A stretch of DNA of 64,000 bases from Xanthostigma xanthostigma (Eukaryota > Arthropoda > Insecta > Raphidioptera > Raphidiidae), in contig OY754469.1 in the NCBI GenBank assembly GCA_963575645.1, forward strand, positions 40,382,753 to 40,446,752. The letters run 5' to 3'. This document shows, one piece after another, positions 1,743 to 61,694 of the stretch. Position 1 is the stretch's first letter. Every line of letters begins with the position of its first letter. The notes beneath the pieces are model-generated. The model ran no database searches, was not told the DNA's origin, and saw only the letters and a list, made by a program, of their open reading frames with translations. The position numbers and the translations under genes are program-made.

Positions 1743-4700
1743 CGTCGGTTGACAAGTAAAATTCATTAAGTGCGTTTACAGCTTATCAGAGATAATGAGG
1801 TTTTAATTATTATTTTATACTAAAATTCTATTTTATTAGCTACTGATGTGATTTCGTAGAATATTATAAAAAATATATTCCTCTAAAACCCAGTGCTTAA
1901 ATTTTCATCCACAATGCGTTATTTTTTAAGAAAAAATATAAAAAAGTAGTTAGTGAATTTTACCTGCCAGAATTGTAAACAGAGGAAGTACATAATGAAT
2001 AAAAACTTATTTAATATCAGCTATTACCTTTATTTTATAAAAAAAAAAAACAAACTATTTTATTCAAAAAAATAAAAATTTAAATATAGGAAGTACTTAA
2101 AAAAAGCTTTTTTAGTCATCCTCTAAATCTGTTTCATCAATAGATGGCTCTGGTAAGCGCTCTGTAAATAATTCGTTTTTAGTTGGTAAACTTTTGTACC
2201 ATGGGATAACTTCCTCTGGAATTAAACCAGCAGCACATAGTTTTATAATGTCATTTTTTTTTTCCTGCGAAATAGGTAACATATTCGAATATGCTGATTT
2301 CATTTCCACTGTTGTTGTTCTTCGGCGACCTCTTCCTGCAACATTTATTTGTTTGTAATCAGATGTATGGTCGTATCTGTAAAATAAAGTGTCGGGGAAA
2401 TTTTTTTCGAATTTAAGGCACTTTATTTTAAGCCACGACACTTTGTCACCACAATCATCTTTATTGCGATTTTTGATTGTGGTGGCTGCTAAATCCTGTA
2501 GATTGTAAAAGTCCGTGTACTTCAAAAGATGTACTTGATATTCCCCTTTGCTTTTTGCTCTTTTATCGGATCTAGCAGATTGAAAAATCCGCATCCAATC
2601 AGTCATCGTAAACGCATTTTTATTTTTTTTTGCTGACTCTATTGCAGAATGCATAGAGTCACATTCCATGTGGGAATGTCCTGACTCCAAAAACTTAAGC
2701 TCCACTCTGTTTAGATGGCTTAAGTTTTTTACAGCATACATCAATACAGCTGCCACTTGCTGGTTTCTGTTTTGACCACCACAAGTGTCACAGAAAAGTG
2801 AAACATCTGTTACAGTCAAGGGCAAAGATTTGAGGAATTTAAACAAAATTGAACCTATCTCATTGCTCCCTCGCTTACCATGTAATTCGTTCCAAGTATA
2901 GCAATGAGCAATCTCTCCGCTCCCTACATAGATTGTCAAATTGTAAACACACAATTTTCTAGAATAATAAAACAATGATACACTTGAATACGGCAACTGT
3001 AAGACACTTTGCAAATCAAAAGTGCAAGTAACGAATGTAGGATCATCTTTGCATCTCAGCTTATCATTAGCCTTGGCTTCATTGCACTGGCCTTTCCTTA
3101 TTAAATGCATTGAATATTCTGATTCCAGCTCTTTTTTATTCTCAGTAGAAGCTTGATCATATTTTGAGCATGTTGCACACAGGTCTTTTTTGGGTTTAAA
3201 AAACGAATAGTTGTAGTTATTACAGAATATCCTCCGGTAACATTTTTCGCTGACGAATTCAGTAATGTTTTTTTTCTGGCAGAAATCATTACGGTACAGA
3301 TCATACATTTTCCAGATAGATAAATTACTATCTAGATATAATTTCTTTGAGGACTTCCGAACATAGTGAGATTCCATAACTGGGAAGCTTTCTATGTGTT
3401 CTTTGACTAAAGCAATTAATAATTCACTAGTTTTGTTGCCAGGCGTCTTTCGTCCTCTTTTATCCCCACCAGTAAATGATCCAAAATGTTCCCCTTTAAT
3501 GGCTGTATTAATAGGCCCATTTGATATACATAGAGTCTTTTCAAAAAATTTTGCACATACTCGATGCCTTCCAGTATTGTTTTCTAAAAAATATGTCTTA
3601 GACACATCGCGTGCTTTAGCACTATTGACATCTACTTTTCTGCGTTTTGGTAGTTCTGTTTGAACACATTTTAATATAAAATCCTTTTGTCTATTATAAT
3701 CAGAAAATCCCCAATAAGATTTACAAATTTCTTGTCTGTCCTCTTCTGTAATGTGACTTGTACATTTAAATCTACAGTTAGAACAATCAATAGGTTTTGG
3801 AGCTTTAGCAGGATGGCTTTTTTTTTTGCTTGTATAAGGCAGACATTTTGCTCGGTGAGATTTCGTAATATTGGCTTTCCAGTTTTCTGGGTGACTTGTT
3901 CTACATCGTGTCAATATTTTGTCACTTTCATCCATATTATAGTCTGAAAAATCAGAAATTTCTGAATCGTCTCTAGCACGAGACGATTCAGGCTGGAAAG
4001 TAGGGTCATCATTGGAATCTGTACTAATGTCGTTCTCCTCATCACTATTGCAATCATAGGCAACAAGCCGCAGTGAGTTGTTTTGCACCTGCAAAATGTC
4101 AAAGAAAATTTAAGATTATAATGATATTGTCAAAATCAATATTATTTAATATAATATTGTATTATTAATATAATTGAAAATTGTACAAGTAGAAACTAAC
4201 ATTGTTTTGATTTAAATTTAATTCACATCTTTGAACAAAAAATATTATAACATACACGTATTGTAAAGCTGATGTCAAAATAATAAAGATATACTTACGT
4301 CGTTTTGTGGTAGCTCACAAGGGCCAGCAGATTTATCATCATAGAAATCTTTTTGGGCACGCAGTATGGACTTATGATTCTATAACAAAGACTCCATTAT
4401 TAGTATCTATCCTAAATTTTAAATAGAAACATATAAAAAACGCGACAAGATACGTTAATACTTACGAGATTATCAATATTTTCTTTGTCCTTTTCTTTTT
4501 TAATTGCCAATTGGACCAAATATTTGCCTCGTGAATTATTCATAATAATAACACTTATCTCAGTCCAATGCACACAATATACTTTTATACACAAAAAAAA
4601 AGAGAAACCACGAACCGCTGATAACGAACTATTAAAAAAACATGTGGTTTTCAGAGAAAACATACATGTGGTCCTATCTAATGTCGAACTGACAATGAAT

Positions 4701-5090: not shown

Positions 5091-6061
5091 GGTCATATGC
5101 ATGTATTTTTTTTATATTTTTAATAGATTATTTAGTCAACCATAATACGGAAAAAAATTGATAATCATTTAAAAATGTAATATTATCACAAGAAAAAAAA
5201 TATGAAATTTCTCATTCAAAAATAGACAGTTTAAACAATCGGCCATGTTGGCGGGCTTATGTGACGTCACGATATATGATGCATGTCAACTTTGGGGTGC
5301 GTTCCGATATGCACTGGGAGCACTGTACAGTGTGACGTCAATTCAGTATACTGTGAAGCCGTTCCTTTATAGCCAGTAATACTGGTTACTATTTAAAACG
5401 GAACGCACTCCAGTATACTGTCAGCATCGTTTTTTGACGCAGTTTTCAAATGAGCGTATTAAAGATTTCTAATTAAATAAGCTCAATTTTTGCAAATTTT
5501 CCATTATTTTCAGAAGTCCAAAATAATTTCAGAATTTTTAATGTCAACTGTTTAGCACTCAAGCGGCTTTGACTGATCACGTGATCAAAGTACTGGCGAG
5601 TACCTTACCTCGAAAACGCCAGTGCTCGCAGTAGAAATATATGGTTATTTATGACGTCATATATTTCCCTAGGGTACTGCGCCAGTATACTGGCGTTCAT
5701 AACGGAACGAATTTTTCTACAGTAAGAGCACTGGGCAGTGCTCCCAGTGTATATCGGAACGCACCCTTGATGTCAAATTGTCAATGTTCTAAATGAAGTT
5801 TATTTGTTGTTTTCTCTAAATACTGACGTAATCTTACTGTGAGACGACCCAGTCGCCATGGAAACTGTTATTGATATATACTCTGACGTCACGCTGCGTT
5901 TTGAAAATTCGAAAATAGCGCGTATTTTCTACGTTTCTATTTTATTATTTGTATTTTTTTCAGTGATTAGATTAATAAAATAACCATTACGATATGATCA
6001 GGAACTAAAATATATTTCAAAATAAAAATTTAAACTAATTTGGAGTCTCATGCATATGACC
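5091..6061. mobile_element. MITE, mariner-like, TIR GGTCATATGCATG, TA target duplication
   Basis: The ends are GGTCATATGCATG at 5091 and its reverse complement ending at 6061, each flanked by TA (5089-5090, 6062-6063). A second copy at 27901-28395 is about 495 bp; subtracting the nested element at 5295-5766 and its 3-bp duplication leaves 496 bp here. No coding capacity. TA duplication and TIR style fit a Tc1/mariner-mobilised MITE. Confidence 0.85.
5295..5766. mobile_element. Nested 472-bp MITE with GGGTGCGTTCCGATAT TIRs and TTG duplication
   Basis: It starts GGGTGCGTTCCGATATGCAC and ends with the matching inverted copy (one difference in about 30 bp). It is flanked by TTG at 5292-5294 and 5767-5769. 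The copy of the host MITE at 27901-28395 has a single TTG at this point, which is a natural empty site. Inside are several CAGTATACTG-type palindromes. The 3-bp duplication and GGG end suggest a PIF/Harbinger-like mobiliser, but that is tentative. Confidence 0.85.
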
Positions 6062-6092
6062 TATTTTGCAATGTGTAGAGACAGACCAAACA

Positions 6093-6174
6093 CCATGGTG
6101 GAAACATTACAAGGTGTGCTCATTTTTAGAAACAAACTGCTTAATGAGTACACCGTGCAATATTTCCACCATGG
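6093..6174. other. 82-nt hairpin, pre-miRNA-sized
   Basis: Arms 6093-6124 and 6143-6174 pair with only four mismatches in 32 bp and leave an 18-nt loop. The stem begins and ends with CCATGG. Size and shape fit a microRNA precursor, but a relic of a small palindromic MITE would look the same. No sign of transcription can be read from sequence. Confidence 0.4.
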
Positions 6175-6289
6175 ACTACAGTAATATAATATTTTCATAA
6201 AAGTTAAAATATATAGTGAGGGGGTCGTAATAGTCCAAGAGCTATCAAACATTTTTGTGTAAAACTTCTTTTGTAATGTCTGAACCATA

Positions 6290-20893: not shown

Positions 20894-20966
20894 TCTTCAA
20901 TAAATACAATTATCGACCAATTTTTCAGACAAATATATTAACAAAAAAATATAATTAATACATTAA

Positions 20967-20996
20967 CGTTTCGATCCGGATTTGGATCTTCATCAG
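20967..20996 (-). ncRNA. Hammerhead-like ribozyme core (Penelope family 2)
   Basis: Minus strand reads CTGATGA, one extra A, stem GATCC/GGATC around a loop, then GAAAC. CUGANGA...GAAA is the hammerhead core known to occur in Penelope-like termini. The extra A before stem II departs from the strict consensus, and stems I and III are not resolved, so activity is uncertain. Confidence 0.5.
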
Positions 20997-21112
20997 AACT
21001 GATCTAAAAATATAAAATGTAATTAATATTTATTTTTAATAAAATTCGTGAAAGATTATTAAAAATAAATAGAAACTAAATATTAATTACTCTTTATATT
21101 TTTAGATCAGTT

Positions 21113-21143
21113 CTGATGAAAATCCAAATCTGGATCGAAACGT
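21113..21143 (+). ncRNA. Hammerhead-like ribozyme core, second arm
   Basis: CTGATGA, then stem AATCC/GGATC (one mismatch at its base), then GAAAC. It is the inverted partner of the motif at 20967-20996, slightly decayed. Confidence 0.45.
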
Positions 21144-21213
21144 TGATGTATTAATTATAATTTTTTGTTAATATATGTCTAAAAAATTGGTCGATAATTT
21201 CATTTATTGAAGA

Positions 21214-22130
21214 GTTCTATAATCAAACGTTAATCAAAGATTGAATAAACAGTTTTCGTTAAACGGAGAGTAAAAGAAAACAATATAATTCTACGAATAC
21301 GTGGTTTTAATTTTGATTAAATTAAAGTGAAAAAATTTACATAACTAAATTATAATTTGTTAACTTTAATTGTAGTTTTTTACCATGCCAATATTTTGTA
21401 TCTTTCGTTATATTTTTTCACATCTTGGGATATAGTGGGATCATCTTCGTTAAATAAAAATAATTTTTCTTTACAACAAAACAAATGAACACATTTCAAA
21501 AAATCGCATTGTTAGGGGTTAAATAATGACGTATTGTTTCGCTACTGAGAGTGGTTGTTATAGAAACACTATTATATAGTGTTTCAATATATGGATAATA
21601 ATGTAAACCAAACAAACCTTAGCAATTTCTACGTTTTAAGGAGTTTTCCGTTAAATAGAAGTTCGCTATATAGAGTTTACACTGTATATTTAAATTCAGC
21701 CACAAACATTTTTCATAATAAATATATATGAATTTAGATTAGGTATATACAGATTATGTACAGGTGGACGAAAAAAAAATAATTTCAGGGCAAACATCAG
21801 TGAGATAATAAAATATACACAATAGATAGCTTTCGTAAACTCAATCAGTTAACTATTGCAGTTTTTAATTATCGACTTAAAAAAATATAAATGTTTCGGA
21901 CGCCCATGGCAAGATCAGATTTCGCAAATTTTGTTGGTTAAAAACAATTATAATCGTATTGCCATATGATTGCGCCCTATACCGGGGGTTGCGCTCCTGA
22001 CGCTGCTTTGGGCATTAAAAAAATGTTCAGTTGTCGAGCGTCTATAATATACTAAAGGCATATATCGCTATCAAAAATTGTCTACCGGTATACATGGTTA
22101 ACAATAAGAATTATACTGTTCCTCAAAAAT
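21214..22130. other. Spacer; no gene recognised
   Basis: AT-rich sequence left of the Penelope complex. Nothing supported. Confidence 0.35.
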
Positions 22131-22211
22131 AGTACATTTATTTATATTAATAATATCAGGAATGTGGACTAGATAAGATGGTAAATAATAATCACTTTAT
22201 TATTTCTGCAA

Positions 22212-22240
22212 CGTTTCGGTCTTTATTAGACCTTCCTCAG
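22212..22240 (-). ncRNA. Hammerhead-like ribozyme core near Penelope 3' end (left copy)
   Basis: Exact inverted copy of 26945-26973. Confidence 0.55.
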
Positions 22241-22656
22241 GCATCTGAAAAAATTACATATGTACTTACTTAACCACTACATTGGCACAATAATTATTAC
22301 AATTCAATATTTACCATAATACGAATTAAAATAATCACCATCCCATAATGCACAGTCGTCCAAGTCATACATCTTTTTACAACATTAACAAAACTGATAA
22401 ATTAGTTAAAATTAATACCAGAAATAAATATAGAAATAAAATACATAAAATACACCATGTGGAATTTGTGTCTCATGGTAAACAGTAAACCCATCTTTCA
22501 AACCTTCGGCTCTCTATACTCTACTTTATTACATACAAACATTAGTCCTACGTTGTTAGCGCCATCTAGTCCAACATTAATCAAACATTGATACTGTCAT
22601 ATTCAAATTAATCATTCTTAATAACAAAAATATTAGGAGCACTGTGGTTTGAATCT

Positions 22657-22849
22657 AATAACAAATAGAGAATAGTTACTTCTCACCACAACAAGCCTAC
22701 CAGCGGATGCACACCCCGAGAGCCACGCTCCCATCCTCAGCAATACACTAAAGTTTAGTGTATTGCTGAAGATGAGAGCATAGCCCCCGAAACGCACACC
22801 CACCAACAAACCCGCCGCGGCAAGAAGCAACCATTCTCTATTTGTTATT
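22657..22849 (-). ncRNA. Same 3'UTR hairpin in the left Penelope copy
   Basis: Mirror image of 26336-26528 with the same sequence, so the G.U pattern predates the duplication of the two copies. Confidence 0.88.
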
Positions 22850-22870
22850 CTTAATAAACTAATTTTTAAA

Positions 22871-24612
22871 TTATTTCCTCTTATTACGTTTATAGTCTAA
22901 CAAAATGTCATTATATAAAATACTTAGATTATTGGTGTCCGTCCTTTTATTCATAGTGTCATTAATTTTTATGTAGATCATCTCACTAACATTACGTTTC
23001 CACCAATTTTTTTCTTTATCTAAAATTGTCACATTGTCAAACATAAAATTATGATGTTGTTCAAAGTAGTGAGATGCTAACGCTGTCTTATTCTCTTTCA
23101 TTATGTTAATATTCTTACAATCATAAATATGTTGTTTAACTCTATTTTCTAAATATTGCTTAGTTTGCCCTATATAACACAGTCCACAACTACAAGGTAT
23201 TTTATAAACTAATCCTGATTGCTGCTGTTTATTAACTGGATCTTTTAACCTGGAATACACAGAATTTACTCTTAAGATGTTATAAAATGCTAATCTTACA
23301 TTAGTTCCTATGAAACACCTATCTACTCTATGTGATAATTCTGCTATATACGGAAACCTGCAATATTTTATATTATTAATTCTATTGGCATCTACAATTA
23401 TATTCTCCTTCCAGTTCCCTTTAAATCTATTTATAATATTATTAACAAAAGATAAATCATAATTATTGTTCAGCAACATATTTCTGATCTTCTTAAAATT
23501 AGCTTCATGGAATTCACTACTACTCAGCCTAACCATTCTATTTAGCAGGCCTTTAATCATACCAATTTTTTGCGATCTCGGGTGGTTAGATTTCCAATTC
23601 AATAATCTACCCGAACTTATTGGTTTTACGTACCAATCTGTAACTAATTTACTATCTGATCTTTTCACTAGAACGTCCAAGAAGGACAAACTATTTTCTT
23701 TCTCCTTCTCCATAGTAAACTGAATGTTGTTATCAAAACTATTAAATGAATCTAATATATTATCTACTTCGCCTGCTGGTATCGCCGCAATAGTGTCATC
23801 CACATATAATTTCAAGAAATGAACATCAAACGGTAACACTGAGAGAATTTGACTAATGACGTAATTCATAACTAAATTAGCTATGACTGGACTCGCTGGA
23901 TTGCCCATGCTGCTGCCTTCAACCTGCGCGTAAAACTTCCCTTGGTACACAAAATAACTTGAGTCATAACAGAATATGATAAGTTCTATTAAAACTTCTT
24001 TTGGAATCTTCATCAGATGTTCAAAATTATCCCAGGTTTCTTCTATTACTCTCAGTACCAAATCTCGTTTTACATTTGTGAACAACGACACCACGTCTAA
24101 TGAAATTAATACATAATCTTCTGGTAGGGTAACTGTTTTACTAAATTCCACGAAGTCAAAAGAATTTTTTACATTATATCGGAAAGTTTCTATTACTGGA
24201 GAAAGTATTTCATGTAGTAATCTTGCTAAATTGTAGCTCGGGGAATTAACACAACTGACTACCGGACGCAAGTTACAATTTTGTTTATGTGTTTTTCTCA
24301 ATCCATATATCCTAGGCGCCACGGTGTTATTCGCCTTTAGCTGCTTTTCTTGATGTTCTTCCACGATTCCATCTGCTACCAACCTTTCCACTAGACTATT
24401 AGCAACCTTTTGCCATTTACTTGTCGGGTCTTTTTTCAGTAACTTATACGTCGAGCTGTCATCAATCATTTTTTGCATCTCTCTATCATATTCTTCTTTC
24501 AACATGACCACCGTTGTGTTCCCCTTGTCAGCTCGTGCAACTATTATTTCCGGTCTTTCCTTAAGGAACTTCCTAGTAATATGTAAGTTATCGATGAAAA
24601 CCTTTTGACTCA
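22871..24612 (-). CDS. Penelope-like RT / GIY-YIG endonuclease, 5'-truncated (left copy)
   Basis: Encodes about 580 residues of the single Penelope polyprotein, starting mid-protein at the copy junction (SQKVFIDNLHIT precedes the part shared with the right copy). It is open to its natural stop. The domains match the right copy: a segment with ADKGN, reverse transcriptase motifs A (SLDVVSLFTN), B (GSSMGNPASP) and C (YVDD), then a GIY-YIG nuclease. The frame stays open across the junction to 24712 only because it reads the antisense of the right copy; that extension is an artefact and no start codon is left. The true N-terminus is missing, so the copy is probably nonautonomous although RT and nuclease look intact. 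Confidence 0.85.
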
Positions 24613-26314
24613 GAAGTTCCTTAAGGAAAGACCGGAAATAATAGTTGCACGAGCTGACAAGGGGAACACAACGGTGGTCATGTTGAAAGAAGAATATGAT
24701 AGAGAGATGCAAAAAATGATTGATGACAGCTCGACGTATAAGTTACTGAAAAAAGACCCGACAAGTAAATGGCAAAAGGTTGCTAATAGTCTAGTGGAAA
24801 GGTTGGTAGCAGATGGAATCGTGGAAGAACATCAAGAAAAGCAGCTAAAGGCGAATAACACCGTGGCGCCTAGGATATATGGATTGAGAAAAACACATAA
24901 ACAAAATTGTAACTTGCGTCCGGTAGTCAGTTGTGTTAATTCCCCGAGCTACAATTTAGCAAGATTACTACATGAAATACTTTCTCCAGTAATAGAAACT
25001 TTCCGATATAATGTAAAAAATTCTTTTGACTTCGTGGAATTTAGTAAAACAGTTACCCTACCAGAAGATTATGTATTAATTTCATTAGACGTGGTGTCGT
25101 TGTTCACAAATGTAAAACGAGATTTGGTACTGAGAGTAATAGAAGAAACCTGGGATAATTTTGAACATCTGATGAAGATTCCAAAAGAAGTTTTAATAGA
25201 ACTTATCATATTCTGTTATGACTCAAGTTATTTTGTGTACCAAGGGAAGTTTTACGCGCAGGTTGAAGGCAGCAGCATGGGCAATCCAGCGAGTCCAGTC
25301 ATAGCTAATTTAGTTATGAATTACGTCATTAGTCAAATTCTCTCAGTGTTACCGTTTGATGTTCATTTCTTGAAATTATATGTGGATGACACTATTGCGG
25401 CGATACCAGCAGGCGAAGTAGATAATATATTAGATTCATTTAATAGTTTTGATAACAACATTCAGTTTACTATGGAGAAGGAGAAAGAAAATAGTTTGTC
25501 CTTCTTGGACGTTCTAGTGAAAAGATCAGATAGTAAATTAGTTACAGATTGGTACGTAAAACCAATAAGTTCGGGTAGATTATTGAATTGGAAATCTAAC
25601 CACCCGAGATCGCAAAAAATTGGTATGATTAAAGGCCTGCTAAATAGAATGGTTAGGCTGAGTAGTAGTGAATTCCATGAAGCTAATTTTAAGAAGATCA
25701 GAAATATGTTGCTGAACAATAATTATGATTTATCTTTTGTTAATAATATTATAAATAGATTTAAAGGGAACTGGAAGGAGAATATAATTGTAGATGCCAA
25801 TAGAATTAATAATATAAAATATTGCAGGTTTCCGTATATAGCAGAATTATCACATAGAGTAGATAGGTGTTTCATAGGAACTAATGTAAGATTAGCATTT
25901 TATAACATCTTAAGAGTAAATTCTGTGTATTCCAGGTTAAAAGATCCAGTTAATAAACAGCAGCAATCAGGATTAGTTTATAAAATACCTTGTAGTTGTG
26001 GACTGTGTTATATAGGGCAAACTAAGCAATATTTAGAAAATAGAGTTAAACAACATATTTATGATTGTAAGAATATTAACATAATGAAAGAGAATAAGAC
26101 AGCGTTAGCATCTCACTACTTTGAACAACATCATAATTTTATGTTTGACAATGTGACAATTTTAGATAAAGAAAAAAATTGGTGGAAACGTAATGTTAGT
26201 GAGATGATCTACATAAAAATTAATGACACTATGAATAAAAGGACGGACACCAATAATCTAAGTATTTTATATAATGACATTTTGTTAGACTATAAACGTA
26301 ATAAGAGGAAATAA
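24613..26314 (+). CDS. Penelope-like RT / GIY-YIG endonuclease, 5'-truncated (right copy)
   Basis: About 566 codons in frame from the junction to the stop at 26312-26314. Numbering from the nearby in-frame TTG at 24605, ADKGN lies at 17-21; RT motif A D162 (LISLDVVSLF); motif B about 222-231 (GSSMGNPASP); motif C YVDD 259-262, the metal-binding aspartates. The GIY-YIG domain starts near 457 (VYKIPC..C...YIGQT), with R480, H504 and E533 as likely catalytic or structural residues and Cys 463/465/468/488 as the Cys cluster typical of the Penelope nuclease. No stops or frameshifts, and it is identical in translation to the left copy, so both derive from one recent event. The N-terminal part found in full-length elements is absent. 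Confidence 0.9.
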
Positions 26315-26335
26315 TTTAAAAATTAGTTTATTAAG

Positions 26336-26528
26336 AATAACAAATAGAGAATGGTTGCTTCTTGCCGCGGCGGGTTTGTTGGTGGGTGTGCGTTTCGGGG
26401 GCTATGCTCTCATCTTCAGCAATACACTAAACTTTAGTGTATTGCTGAGGATGGGAGCGTGGCTCTCGGGGTGTGCATCCGCTGGTAGGCTTGTTGTGGT
26501 GAGAAGTAACTATTCTCTATTTGTTATT
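26336..26528 (+). ncRNA. 95-bp 3'UTR hairpin, all irregular pairs are G.U
   Basis: Positions 26336-26430 pair with 26434-26528 (i pairs with 52864-i) with no bulge and no mismatch on the sense strand. I count 66 Watson-Crick and 29 G.U pairs; 15 of the G residues are on the 5' arm and 14 on the 3' arm. It starts 22 nt after the RT stop codon. On the antisense strand the same 29 positions would be A.C mismatches, so the structure acts in the sense transcript. See finding. Confidence 0.9.
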
Positions 26529-26944
26529 AGATTCAAACCACAGTGCTCCTAATATTTTTGTTATTAAGAATGATTAATTTGAATATGACAGTATCAATGT
26601 TTGATTAATGTTGGACTAGATGGCGCTAACAACGTAGGACTAATGTTTGTATGTAATAAAGTAGAGTATAGAGAGCCGAAGGTTTGAAAGATGGGTTTAC
26701 TGTTTACCATGAGACACAAATTCCACATGGTGTATTTTATGTATTTTATTTCTATATTTATTTCTGGTATTAATTTTAACTAATTTATCAGTTTTGTTAA
26801 TGTTGTAAAAAGATGTATGACTTGGACGACTGTGCATTATGGGATGGTGATTATTTTAATTCGTATTATGGTAAATATTGAATTGTAATAATTATTGTGC
26901 CAATGTAGTGGTTAAGTAAGTACATATGTAATTTTTTCAGATGC

Positions 26945-26973
26945 CTGAGGAAGGTCTAATAAAGACCGAAACG
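26945..26973 (+). ncRNA. Hammerhead-like ribozyme core near Penelope 3' end (right copy)
   Basis: CTGAGGA, one extra A, stem GGTCT/AGACC with loop aataa, then GAAACG. Compared with the family 2 motif (GATCC/GGATC) two base pairs of the stem have changed on both sides, i.e. compensatory change, which supports a real RNA stem. Cleavage site and stem I are not resolved. Confidence 0.55.
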
Positions 26974-27088
26974 TTGCAGAAATAATAAAGTGATTATTAT
27001 TTACCATCTTATCTAGTCCACATTCCTGATATTATTAATATATATTTATAATTATGGATGATAATAACAACAACAAGTACATTTATTT

Positions 27089-47657: not shown

Positions 47658-48826
47658 TAATATAATACTGTGAAGAATAGTTTAGAAAAAATAAATTATT
47701 TCTTCTTTACATCTAAATAATGTACAGAAATTTAATGAACTAAAAATTGAGTTCAGATATAATTCGAATACATTTTTAACAAGGTTTTTATTTTTTTAAA
47801 TCACAGAACTCAGTACTCACGGCCATTTTTACGAGCTTCAAACATTAAGACAGAAATCAAAAGAAATAATGTGTGCCAGTATTACAGTCAAGGGTTTTTT
47901 TCAAAAATGTGCGGGTAAAATTGTATAGTTTTTCTCGAATTTAATACACACTGGACTGACTGAGTAGGTAACCTAAACAAATCCCTGCAATTAAAGTAAA
48001 GAAATTGCCTACTAGAAATGAGTTATCTAATGACATTCTTGTTTATGACTGCCTTTTAGACAAAAGTACAAAATAGTTTAACAAAAGGAAAATACCTATT
48101 ACTTCACTATCAGTGAAATTTACTACATATTATGTGCATTAAAAATTATCGTTTTTGTAGATAAAAATTACTTCTTTCGAAAAGGTTATTTTCGAATAAT
48201 GCTGCCCTAATGAAGATAAGACATCGTTTTCAAATAGTTATATTTTACAAATAATTGTTATCAATTTATAAATAAAGATTAAACATTACCTACTACAAAC
48301 TGCAGCACTTGTTAGGAGAGTATAATAATAACTATTAATAAAAAATAGCACTTTTGCTATTGATGCGCTATGAATGAATCAAAACTCTGTTTTTTTTGCC
48401 TGTAGGTGATTTTTCCGGGGAAAACCAATATTTTCACATTGTAACAGAAGTGCAACATACAATGCATGTTCCTTAGATAAAAATCGCTATTACAGAGAAA
48501 GTTGAAATTTTCGATATTTTTTTAATTCGACCGGAACTACCCTTATGTGGAAAGGTGCAGGGTAAAAAATGAAATATGAGATAGATCAAATATGATCAAC
48601 GGGTAGGGGGGGGGGGCAATAAAAAAAATAATGGACGTCCCCCAACACTGCGTTTTATACCTTCGTACTATTTTAGAAACATTTTTTATTCAAAATTTTG
48701 GAGTGTCAAAATTGTTTAATTGCGTTTTCCACTAGTTGCACTTTTATGCTTAATATAATTCTATCAGGAGATGATGGCAAAGGACATATATTTAGAAATC
48801 TCAAATGAAAATTGATAATAATTTAC
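47658..48826. other. 5' end of the 20-kb intron; no gene recognised
   Basis: AT-rich unique sequence with a run of 11 G at about 48606-48616. The CDK-inhibitor donor lies at the right edge. Confidence 0.4.
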
Positions 48827-49223
48827 CTGTTATCTGAAGTTGACCATCACCACACTGCCTGCCGCATAGCTTCAGCGTGTTCGAATTTGTAAACAAATTT
48901 CTTTTCGCACGTTGCAATTTCCACGCAGTGATATCCTGTAGAGGTTTCCTTTCTTCTGTTTCCGGTACAATTTTCGAGTCTTTCACCTCTTTGTTTACTT
49001 CTAACATATCGATTTCAACAAATTTCGATTGAATTATATCAAAACCCCATCTTCTGATCATTCGTTCTTTATCGATCCTTTCTTGTTCTTCCAACAACTT
49101 CTGCGTTATTTTAGGATCCGGCGTTCCAAACAGATTTCTGCGGGCAGTTGACCGCATATTTTTAAACAAATCACTACGAACTTTCAAACCGCTTTTAACG
49201 AACAAATCACTGCTTGAAGCCAT
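48827..49223 (-). CDS. dap: Dacapo/p21-like CDK inhibitor, first coding exon (CDI domain)
   Basis: ATG at 49223; 132 codons plus one base to the donor ACAG|gtaaat at 48827/48826. The CDI domain spans about 26-75: RRNLFG at 28-33 is the cyclin-docking RxLF motif, followed by a helical linker (about 36-57) and RWGFD at 58-62, the CDK-contacting strand. A second docking-like motif, KRNLF, is at 107-111. The protein is predicted to bind and inhibit cyclin-CDK2 complexes in the nucleus. The exon ends at ...QLQIT plus G, and the terminal exon at 28824 supplies the rest of the PIP degron. Total 171 residues, close to p21 (164) and smaller than Drosophila Dacapo. The intron is 20,002 bp and filled with transposons, odd for such a small gene. 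Upstream noncoding exons are possible. Confidence 0.85.
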
Positions 49224-55853: not shown

Positions 55854-56618
55854 GAGAGCTGGCTACGGAGAAAATGGGTGACTCGGTGCAGAGCTGAAAA
55901 TTTGCAGAATAATAGGAGATAGTATAAGTAAGTAGGGAAAAAATTGCCAGAAGGCTAGGCGGAAGATAAAGAGCCGCCAGAAGGCGCTAATGTTGCGAAA
56001 AATCAGTGCACTTCTGGCAATTTCTATACTTATTCTGTAATTCAAAGCTAGATTATATATTATATATATTATACATTATATAGTTATAAGAGCATACTGA
56101 AAATTCAAAGATGATATAATAATTACGTTCGACAAATATTCAAAATTATTATAATGACATTTTGATAGAAATAAAATTAAATAAATTAATAAAATTACGT
56201 TGCTATAACAAAGTAATTTTATTGATGAAAATATATGACGATTAATTTTATTTATACCAAAATTTCATTAATAATTTTGAATATTTGTCGAATGTAATTA
56301 TTATATCATGTTTGAATTTTTTTTTTCATTATTTTGATATAAATAATTTTGAAAGATTCTATAAAAAGCGAATTAGATTTTAAATATTAATTATTTTTAT
56401 ATTTTTTAGATCAATTCTGAAGAAGGTCCAAATCCGGATTGAAACGTTAATGTATTAATTTTATATTTTTTGTTAATATATTGTCTGAAAAATTGGTCGA
56501 TAATTTTATTTATTGAAGAGTTCTAATCAGACGTTAATCAAAGATTTGACTATCTTCTATTATTCTGCAAATTTTCAGCTCTGCACCGAGTCACCCATTT
56601 TCTCCGTTGCCAGCTCTC
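55854..56618. mobile_element. Composite foldback element with 70-bp TIRs and three nested inverted repeats
   Basis: Outer arms 55854-55924 and 56549-56618 (gagagctggctacggagaaa, atgggtgactcggtgcagag) are inverted with about three differences. Inside: a hairpin at about 55919-56036 (ttgccagaag arms), a 55-bp-arm palindrome at about 56098-56330 (attcaaagatgatataataa; tcgacaaatattcaaaatta), and a Penelope family 2 terminus (about 56395-56545). Confidence 0.75.
56417..56446 (+). ncRNA. Hammerhead-like core in Penelope family 2 fragment
   Basis: CTGAAGA, extra A, stem GGTCC/GGATT (two G.U pairs), GAAACG. Same arrangement as 20967-20996; the stem is retained through wobble pairs. Confidence 0.45.
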
Positions 56619-59998: not shown

Positions 59999-61694
59999 CG
60001 AGCCCCGTCCCGTTTCAATTGGCCCACTTACTGAAATTTCAATTTCTTTAAGATTTATTCAAAAAAGTGTTAAACTAACTGCCACTTTACATTTTTTTCT
60101 TGTAAATATTCATATTAAAAGCTGTTTTCATAACATTAAGTAAAATGTATTCAAATATATTTAATTTTTATCATAAAAACGAAATGGGTGTAAATAATGC
60201 GTTTTATGCGTCAACATAACAAATATTAGACTATGTAAGAAGTTAAGTGATATTAGAGGTGGCTATGTAAAAACACGATAAAACAATTGTTATTTATTGA
60301 TAGTAATTTGTCAAAAGTGTCAAAAAGTAATAGTATAATATTTTTTTAACTTAAAAATGGGTAGAGGCGCAGTTATTGACCAAAAACTTAGAGTAATCAT
60401 TATTAACTTGTGGAAAACCGGAAAATCAAATTCCGAAATCGGGAAATTGTTAAATTTATCAAAATATAGTGTTAGAAATATTGTGAGACTGTACAAAACA
60501 AATGGTTCAATCGCCTCAAAGCCCCGGTACGTGAAGAAAACCAAACTAACAGACGGTGATAAACGGGCATTGAAAAGAATAATTAAGGAAAACAGACGTG
60601 CTAACTACGGACAATTGAGCGTACTTTGGAGCAATACTGTGGGAAGACGTATTTCGAGATCTACATGTCATAGGGAAGCAAAGAAGTTAGGATTTGGAAC
60701 GTACAAGGTATTACTCATATTTTTAATCCGCTGTCTTAAATTTAAATTTGCAAAAAACTAACATACGTAATTTGTTTAGGCTAAGGAAAAGCCATTGTTG
60801 ACACAGAAACAAAAGAAAAACAGATTGCAATGGGCAAAAGAACACAAAAATTGGAATTTTGAACAGTGGAACAGCATACATTGGAGTGATGAGTCTCGGT
60901 TTGAAGTTTGTGTAGGTGACAGTCGGAGCAGAGTTATTCGTCAAAAAAATGAAGCATACCATCCCGACTGTTTAAAAAGGAAAGTGAAATTTCCAGCATC
61001 TGTTATGGTATGGGGCTCAATGTCTGCAAGAGGTGTAGGAAAACTGCACTTTATTGATGGCATTGTTAATACAGACAAATATTTAAACATATTAGAAGAG
61101 TCTCTGCTGCCAACAATGGAAGAAGTTTTGGTCTCTGGAGAGAATTTTATTTTTCAGCAAGACGGAGCTGCCTGCCATACATCAAAAAAAGCTAAAAAAT
61201 GGTTCTCAGAGAACACTATTCCACTCTTAGAGTGGGTTTCCAGTAGCCCTGACTTGTCCCCAATTGAAACACTTTGGCATGAAATGAAAAAACGCTTACG
61301 TGTTACTCCCGCTAGATCGGTCTCAGATCTAAGACAAAAACTCAAAGAAATATGGGATAACTTTACTCCACAAGACTGCCAGAATTTAGTTAATACTATG
61401 CCTCGAAGAATAATGGCCGTTATAACCAATAAAGGTGATGTTACCCAATGGTAACTTTTGAAATACGTTTCGAGTTTTAGTTTGTCTGAATGCATATTTT
61501 ATTCGGTTTTCTATTTAATTTTTTATCTTAGTAAGAATATATTATCTAGTAGGCTTAGGTTGTGTAAAAAGTCTGTAAAATATTTGGTACAAAATAAAAA
61601 ATACCTATATTACGCTAGTGTTTCGATTTCTGTTAATTGAGGACTAATAATTGAGTTTTTTGTAAGTGGGCCAACTGAAGTGGGACGGGGCTCG
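59999..61694 (+). mobile_element. Complete Tc1-type transposon (1696 bp)
   Basis: 33-bp TIRs begin CGAGCCCCGTCCC; the two ends differ at three positions. TA is duplicated at 59997-59998 and 61695-61696. It contains one intact transposase gene. CGAGCCCC is not the CAGT start common in Tc1 elements, so this may be a separate lineage. All parts needed for mobility appear present. Confidence 0.93.
60357..61454 (+). CDS. Tc1-family DD34E transposase, two exons, 341 aa
   Basis: Exon 1 is 60357-60707 (117 codons) and exon 2 is 60780-61454. The 72-bp intron has donor AAG|gtatta and acceptor ttgtttag, phase 0; without splicing exon 1 runs into a stop, and the joined frame is fully open. The N-terminal paired-like helix-turn-helix covers about 10-60 (KSNSEIGKLLNLS), with a second HTH to about 115. 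The catalytic triad is D154 (HWSDESRF), D245 (FQQDGAACH) and E280 (DLSPIETLWHEMKKRL); 34 residues separate the last two, i.e. DD34E. The length is the usual one for Tc1. The protein should bind the CGAGCCCC ends and cut and paste at TA. No inactivating lesion is visible. The small intron is unusual in Tc1 transposases. Confidence 0.93.

Follow-up and report, generated by a model that had tools for sequence, protein, structure and literature searches.

A nested palindrome in the 3' UTR of a Penelope-like element carries A-to-G changes that point to ADAR editing fixed by reverse transcription

The host element and its hairpin

The window analysed here, a stretch of 64,000 nucleotides from a 623-Mb genome of 28 contigs, contains an inverted pair of a Penelope-like element (PLE) with a long hairpin embedded in its 3' UTR. 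The features needed for what follows are:

22131-22142, + strand: left TSD of the PLE insertion, AGTACATTTATT, whose boundary with the element end is ambiguous by a few bases
22140-27075: head-to-head PLE twin insertion, with the 3' ends outward
22657-22849, - strand: second hairpin copy, identical, in the inverted PLE twin
24605-26314, + strand: 5'-truncated ORF of the host PLE, reverse transcriptase (RT)/GIY-YIG-like, including its stop codon
26328-26338, + strand: left TSD of the hairpin insertion, TTATTAAGAAT, overlapping the first 3 nt of the palindrome and defined by empty-site copies
26336-26528, + strand: hairpin of 96 pairs, 29 of them G.U, with a 1-nt loop at 26432
26353-26415, + strand: putatively edited zone of the 5' arm, with 15 A>G sites
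26449-26511, + strand: putatively edited zone of the 3' arm, with 14 A>G sites in the window copy
26529-26560, + strand: 32-nt tail of the inserted element, on one side only
26561-26571, + strand: right TSD of the hairpin insertion, TTATTAAGAAT, defined by empty-site copies
27046-27075, + strand: one-sided PLE tail containing ATGGATGATAATAACAACAACA, compared with PMC11167929
27076-27087, + strand: right TSD of the PLE insertion

The hairpin is surrounded by a Penelope-like retrotransposon, the ORF of which contains an RVT_1 domain (E 1.7e-9, 38.1 bits against a cut-off of 29.6 bits), with the best relatives found in Bombyx mori (77% identical) and Cotesia glomerata (73%), and no relatives were found in viral and prokaryote contigs. 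The GIY-YIG profile PF01541 gave no match on this 5'-truncated ORF at E 1e-3; full-length relatives such as P0005 and P0020 carry the domain, and the motif region VYKIPC..CYIGQT of the PLE aligns with them. The two arms of the twin (22140-24577 and 24608-27045) are complementary at 2435 of 2438 positions and are flanked by the direct repeat AGTACATTTATTT, with the ATGGATGATAATAACAACAACA tail at the right end and none at the left. Another four insertions of this PLE are each flanked by a separate 12-bp repeat; three further boundary pairs tested on contig C4 gave no direct repeat. The PLE insertions are head-to-head twins with a tailed and an untailed 3' end (five with a TSD of about 12 bp, namely 22140-27075 and L038-L041; in L040 the tailed side is reduced to a short tail piece), which suggests that the two cDNAs of one twin insertion are initiated from distinct RT start sites. 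A hammerhead-like core, CTGAGGAAGGTCTAATAAAGACCGAAAC, lies near the PLE 3' end (26945-26972); such core-like strings were recognized by pattern only and an Rfam search for a hammerhead ribozyme gave no match, lending no support to a hammerhead identity of the PLE ends.

In the register i + j = 52864, the hairpin comprises 36 A-U, 31 G-C and 29 G.U pairs with neither mismatch nor bulge. This recount of 67 Watson-Crick pairs in the sense strand, giving 96 pairs with the 29 G.U, confirms the original prediction of about 66 Watson-Crick and 29 G.U pairs, and its division of the changes between the arms (15 and 14) recurs in the zone counts above. All G.U pairs are confined to the inner 63 pairs (26353-26415 with 26449-26511), leaving an outer segment of 17 pairs and an apical one of 16 with Watson-Crick pairing throughout. 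Folding gave -143.6 kcal/mol (z -25) for the sense-strand RNA and only -68.6 kcal/mol (z -12.5) for its antisense, and 95 of the 96 pairs are retained on folding together with the surrounding UTR. Shifting the register by -14 to +15 yields at least 46 mismatches. A scan of the window for inverted pairs of at least 40 bp returned 18, including the hairpin and its second copy, which is present at 22657-22849 since the PLE occurs here as an inverted pair joined head to head; the remaining 16 contain 0-3 G.T and 0-3 A.C each, read on the + strand. The G.U-only pattern of the hairpin is not due to chance.

Elsewhere in the window, two related palindromic insertions (20894-21213 and 56100-56546) with hammerhead-like cores (CTGATGAAGATCCAAATCCGGATCGAAAC and variants) probably represent another twin-inserted family; Rfam gave no hammerhead match on 21090-21240. 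An ORF at 48801-49223 (- strand) has a cyclin-dependent kinase inhibitor domain match just under the Pfam cut-off (24.5 versus 25 bits) and no protein relatives at E 1e-3. Transposase-like pieces (HTH, DDE_3) and an ORF with DUF7869 occupy 60357-61454 and 2112-4094 (- strand).

The hairpin as a nested insertion from a second Penelope-like family

All 12 full-length PLE hairpins have the left junction TTATTAAGAATAAC and the TSD TTATTAAGAAT in common. PLE copies free of the insert contain a single TTTATTAAGAAT, with 26338 joined straight to 26561 (twice in L065), and the same unbroken TTTATTAAGAAT is present in L066 and L067, which align to the window PLE only from 26561 on. Given this one common TSD and the empty-site copies, the hairpin entered the host PLE once. 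The hairpin is a 3' piece of a second PLE that entered the 3' UTR of the host PLE in the form of a head-to-head twin. Its earlier description as a Penelope 3' UTR hairpin is corrected accordingly, as the hairpin is not native to this PLE.

One search, which yielded the free copies of the palindrome, scored 40 of 802 candidates, and another scored 40 of 694; copy numbers are therefore lower bounds. In the first of these searches, 12 places are 95-100% identical to the hairpin, and 28 full-length loci (L010-L037), which are those most similar to the hairpin rather than a random draw, have about 82-84% identity on both strands. An arm identity of 84-85% is expected if each G.U pair was once A-U, and thus the 82-84% loci fit a perfect palindrome. 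The free copies stand alone, as palindromes of 192-197 bp that carry a tail on one side (32 nt long in the PLE copy). Exact direct repeats of 10-15 bp bound 25 of the 28, each repeat differing from all the others, with 12 bp the commonest length (14 of 25; a few bases' slack was permitted at the ends in this search). The three without their own repeat (L028, L034 and L036) are nested copies. Pairing is entirely Watson-Crick in 10 free copies and has one or two exceptions in 15, the other three being out of register in the pair count after loss of a terminal base.

A genome search with a 38-base core of the free element gave 440 matches on one strand and 465 on the other (905 places), and none for the reversed control. 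Among the matches listed for contig C1, close core pairs run minus then plus, with 3' ends outward and variable spacing. Fifteen loop spellings are found among the 28 free copies, three of which may reflect later point changes. At each of 12 second-family loci examined (including L080-L087), at least one untailed and at least one tailed arm are present, and in L081 the palindrome arms flank RT and GIY-YIG-like reading-frame pieces of the second PLE. From these sequences we infer that head-to-head twin insertion of a 3' piece of about 130 nt from a second PLE family generated the palindromes, afresh at each insertion. A DNA-transposon MITE, which would move as a fixed unit with symmetric ends and an unvarying centre, was considered for the free palindromes and rejected in view of the varying central junctions, the tails on one side only and the fragments of PLE ORF in L081.

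Several side observations concern these palindromes. Free twins are found inserted in or beside each other or a PLE copy (L051 2070-2214, L028, L034 and L036), and L040 contains a diverged (71%) hairpin relative at 6049-6229; at positions where the PLE hairpin has a G and this relative does not, it has A in most cases. In the free copies, the arm equivalent to 26445-26471 includes a hammerhead-like core (CTGAAGA, stem, GAAA), a motif for which Rfam gave no match, and whose GAAA would have become GGGG in the PLE copy by editing (26468-26471). Rfam microRNA matches on the palindromes stayed under the gathering scores and were set aside as generic hairpin matches.

Polarity, distribution and stepwise gain of the A-to-G changes

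For polarity, the free copies were aligned in the orientation defined by the tail. At all 29 changed sites A is found in 27 of the 28 free copies, and at 28 sites in L030, which has G at one; one additional G of the PLE is A in L028. Between the window copy and the commonest free copy there are 31 differences, comprising 29 A>G changes and one A-T to C-G pair, with no C>U. This pair (6/188, numbered from the first base of the hairpin) is the only other difference in 26 of the 28 free copies when loop and single-copy changes are excluded, and its PLE state is already present in L010 and L020. When the G of each G.U pair is turned back to A, the deduced pre-edit hairpin and the commonest free copy are identical at 191 of 193 positions, and the two remaining mismatches constitute this one pair variant, found in two free copies. 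The copy alignment that had been proposed thus revealed polarised sense-strand A-to-G changes in both arms, consistent with a once perfect hairpin as predicted, and supports the second of two earlier explanations, A-to-I conversion fixed as A-to-G, as the free copies are perfect or nearly perfect palindromes with A. In the PLE context an unedited hairpin was sought among exact left-junction matches, all 12 of which have G at the first two sites, and the starting state is therefore taken from the free copies. Composition arguments alone favoured A>G over C>U and were poor at separating editing from wobble drift (a wobble-equilibrium model with a free rate came within 3 log units in the composition test); the genome copies made them secondary.

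Among the typed PLE copies, distinct A>G sites account for 33 of the 65 hairpin adenosines versus 1 of 155 in the flank (p = 5.6e-20). The flank control consisted of the 480 nt downstream (26561-27040) in the window and 14 loci, polarised by one empty-site copy, and comprised 14 distinct changes, one of them A>G. Within the hairpin, 33 of 40 inner adenosines are changed versus none of 25 in the outer 17 or apical 16 pairs, a contrast that is partly after the fact since it was the sites of lineage I, described below, that served to delimit the inner zone (18-80 pairs from the base). The four sites discovered after the zone had been defined, which are changed in the 3' arm of other copies (26502, 26505, 26508 and 26509), all lie inside it. 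The changed share of inner adenosines is a high fraction, though reached over several episodes. The spared ends fit an enzyme for which duplex is required to either side of its target, as is presumably the case for ADARs. Comparison of the flanks of lineages I and II gave four A/G differences outside the hairpin; on polarisation by the empty-site copy, two of these, 26615 and 26807, proved to be G>A changes of lineage I; earlier p values (8/193 versus 16/2270, gaps counted) predate this polarisation.

As for neighbouring bases, the relevant part of PMC5625713 describes depletion of G on the 5' side of ADAR-edited sites and a preference for A on the 3' side in invertebrates. In the hairpin, sites after a 5' G are changed in 5 of 8 cases versus 28 of 32 elsewhere (a non-significant trend, one-sided p = 0.13), and a 3' A preference is absent among the changed sites. 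The suggestion that surviving adenosines tend to follow G thus turned out weak (unchanged 3 of 8 versus 4 of 32); most candidate sites are changed, which leaves the neighbour test little power.

The hairpin copies in PLEs fall into two lineages, whose counts are by genome place as overlapping fetches (L042/L009 and L043/L041) duplicate some copies. Lineage I (five copies: both window copies, two on C8 and one on C2) has 29 A>G changes. Lineage II (seven copies: one on C6, two on C12 and four on C4) has 27, of which 25 are common with lineage I; it lacks those at 34, 51, 57 and 114 and has extra ones at 170 and 174, besides the non-A>G stem changes T45C (7 of 7 copies) and C155T (6 of 7). Seven partial 3' arms from six loci exhibit further A>G states: site 149 is still A in L063 and L064, site 174 is G in L050, L051, L052, L060 and L063 and A in L064, and L051 has two extra changes, A167G and A173G. 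The distributions of sites 149 and 174 fit no single simple order, and hence some sites may have been edited repeatedly, or templates may have recombined. In total, 33 distinct A>G sites are found versus five other stem substitutions (T45C, C155T, C155A, A142T and T185C), a count made without C97T in the loop, a 1-nt deletion next to the loop and a deletion of 4 nt, and in which C155A, situated at a twin junction, may not be a true substitution. No private A>G was found among the copies within lineage I (n=5) or lineage II (n=7), so editing is not seen in the latest insertions, and a hairpin with 27-29 A>G changes may be a poorer substrate. The edited lineages remained active, with five insertion sites that have their own TSD.

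Proposed mechanism, rival explanations and comparison with known systems

A PF02137 profile search of the genome returned two genes. Exons at C1:55.56 Mb have human ADAR2 as their best match among solved structures (E 1.4e-23 and 1.6e-37), and the genome thus encodes, as judged by homology, an ADAR2-like deaminase; the other gene, on C6, looks by eye like a tRNA deaminase, presumably ADAT1. ADAR has very probably edited PLE transcripts within the double-stranded RNA of the hairpin, with reverse transcription fixing the edits over several rounds. The proposed course begins with the single entry of a 3' piece of about 130 nt from the other PLE family into the PLE 3' UTR, a step visible in the junctions and empty sites, leaving a head-to-head 96-bp palindrome with a one-sided tail. 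The sense transcript of the PLE would then fold into a 96-bp double-stranded hairpin, in which ADAR would deaminate inner adenosines of both arms. Reverse transcriptase would read inosine as G, and so the edits would become sense-strand A>G changes in new genomic copies. The changes were gained in several steps, as shown by the overlapping yet different sets of A>G sites in the copies, and edit-bearing lineages continued to transpose.

Other explanations account less well for these observations. The original prediction had offered as its first explanation that selection keeps the transcript double-stranded. On this view the hairpin, needed for packaging, RT recognition or RNA stability, would drift only via wobble-compatible changes and without editing. 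Such selection would accommodate the absence of mismatches in 96 pairs, the lineage II changes T45C and C155T, which preserve pairing, and the continued activity of the edited lineages at their five TSD-bearing sites; however, C>U on a G-C pair is just as neutral for pairing, yet 29 A>G changes stand against no C>U, and A-U pairs of the outer and apical segments should have drifted too, yet none of 25 is changed. Moreover, hairpin-free PLE copies exist and hence the hairpin is not essential. Selection of this kind is not needed for the pattern and we regard it as very unlikely. Slightly less credible again is an error of the PLE reverse transcriptase, which would misread A as G on crossing a stable hairpin with no deaminase involved. 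With 33 A>G changes versus five other stem substitutions, and 0 of 25 outer or apical adenosines changed, such misreading conflicts with the expectation that other bases and the stem ends should be hit, although the changes are, as with editing, strand specific and limited to the hairpin of the copied RNA; we know of no reverse transcriptase with such A>G specificity. C-to-U change from a GC-rich perfect hairpin, which would likewise yield only G.U pairs, is refuted by the presence of A, not G, at all 29 sites in 27 of the 28 free copies and retains a negligible probability; its implied ancestor would have 82.5% GC in the inner stem, as computed here, in agreement with the value of over 80% put forward earlier.

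If ADAR editing is accepted, its consequence for the element is a separate matter. The nested palindrome would give perfectly double-stranded transcripts, an expected target of RNA interference and double-stranded RNA sensing, and once the element's own reverse transcriptase had copied the edits into DNA, a wobble-rich hairpin would be left, which as DNA would also be a weaker palindrome. The copies carrying the edits are the ones that kept spreading, and on this basis the editing could be regarded as heritable self-detoxification, by which a selfish element turned a modification acquired in its RNA into a heritable adaptation, a speculative idea that we think is rather unlikely to hold. The hairpin allows one to ask if edited retrotransposons benefit from editing. 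ADAR editing is usually regarded as non-heritable; here a temporary RNA change would be inherited as DNA. With the unedited source, the empty site and the edited stages in one genome, RNA editing becomes readable as a stepwise DNA mutational process, the hairpin series offers a means of counting editing episodes, and such genomic fossils may teach how germline ADAR behaves, for instance in sparing 16-17 bp at each end of the stem.

Among known systems, the Poseidon PLE of Anolis carolinensis (PMC11167929) resembles the host element in its RT protein, extension on both strands, an optional tail of 30-40 bp and an AC-rich region near the beginning of the ORF where RT starts. In Anolis this start lies 111-118 bp into the ORF; here the tail ends about 20 nt after an ATG. 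Unlike the Anolis element, the five TSD-bearing insertions described here have one end tailed and the other untailed, a TSD of about 12 bp and no Rfam hammerhead match. Deaminase scars fixed in genomic retroelements are also known from APOBEC DNA editing, and the portion of PMC2873906 considered here, a trace-archive survey of retrotransposon deaminase scars, stresses APOBEC G-to-A clusters; those arise after reverse transcription, whereas the A-to-G changes of the PLE are confined to an RNA hairpin. ADAR hyper-editing of transcript repeats, as presented in the same part of PMC5625713, similarly consists of clustered A-to-G in double-stranded RNA of mobile elements, but was seen in RNA reads, while the PLE change is in genomic DNA. 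In a literature search covering titles and the starts of abstracts, ADAR scars were not described for any Penelope-like element. The closest parallel is with retroviruses, in which nearly 50% of adenosines were converted to G, a proportion called characteristic of ADAR hyperediting in the section of PMC12925331 that summarises Felder 1994. In both cases an inverted-repeat retroelement RNA has about half of its adenosines changed to G (29 of 65 in the PLE). Going by that section, the PLE differs in being a host-genome retrotransposon whose palindrome is a nested insertion, and in having unedited free copies, empty sites and separable editing steps in one genome. The PLE hairpin thus extends known retroviral A-to-G scars to a host-genome retrotransposon with free copies, empty sites and intermediates.
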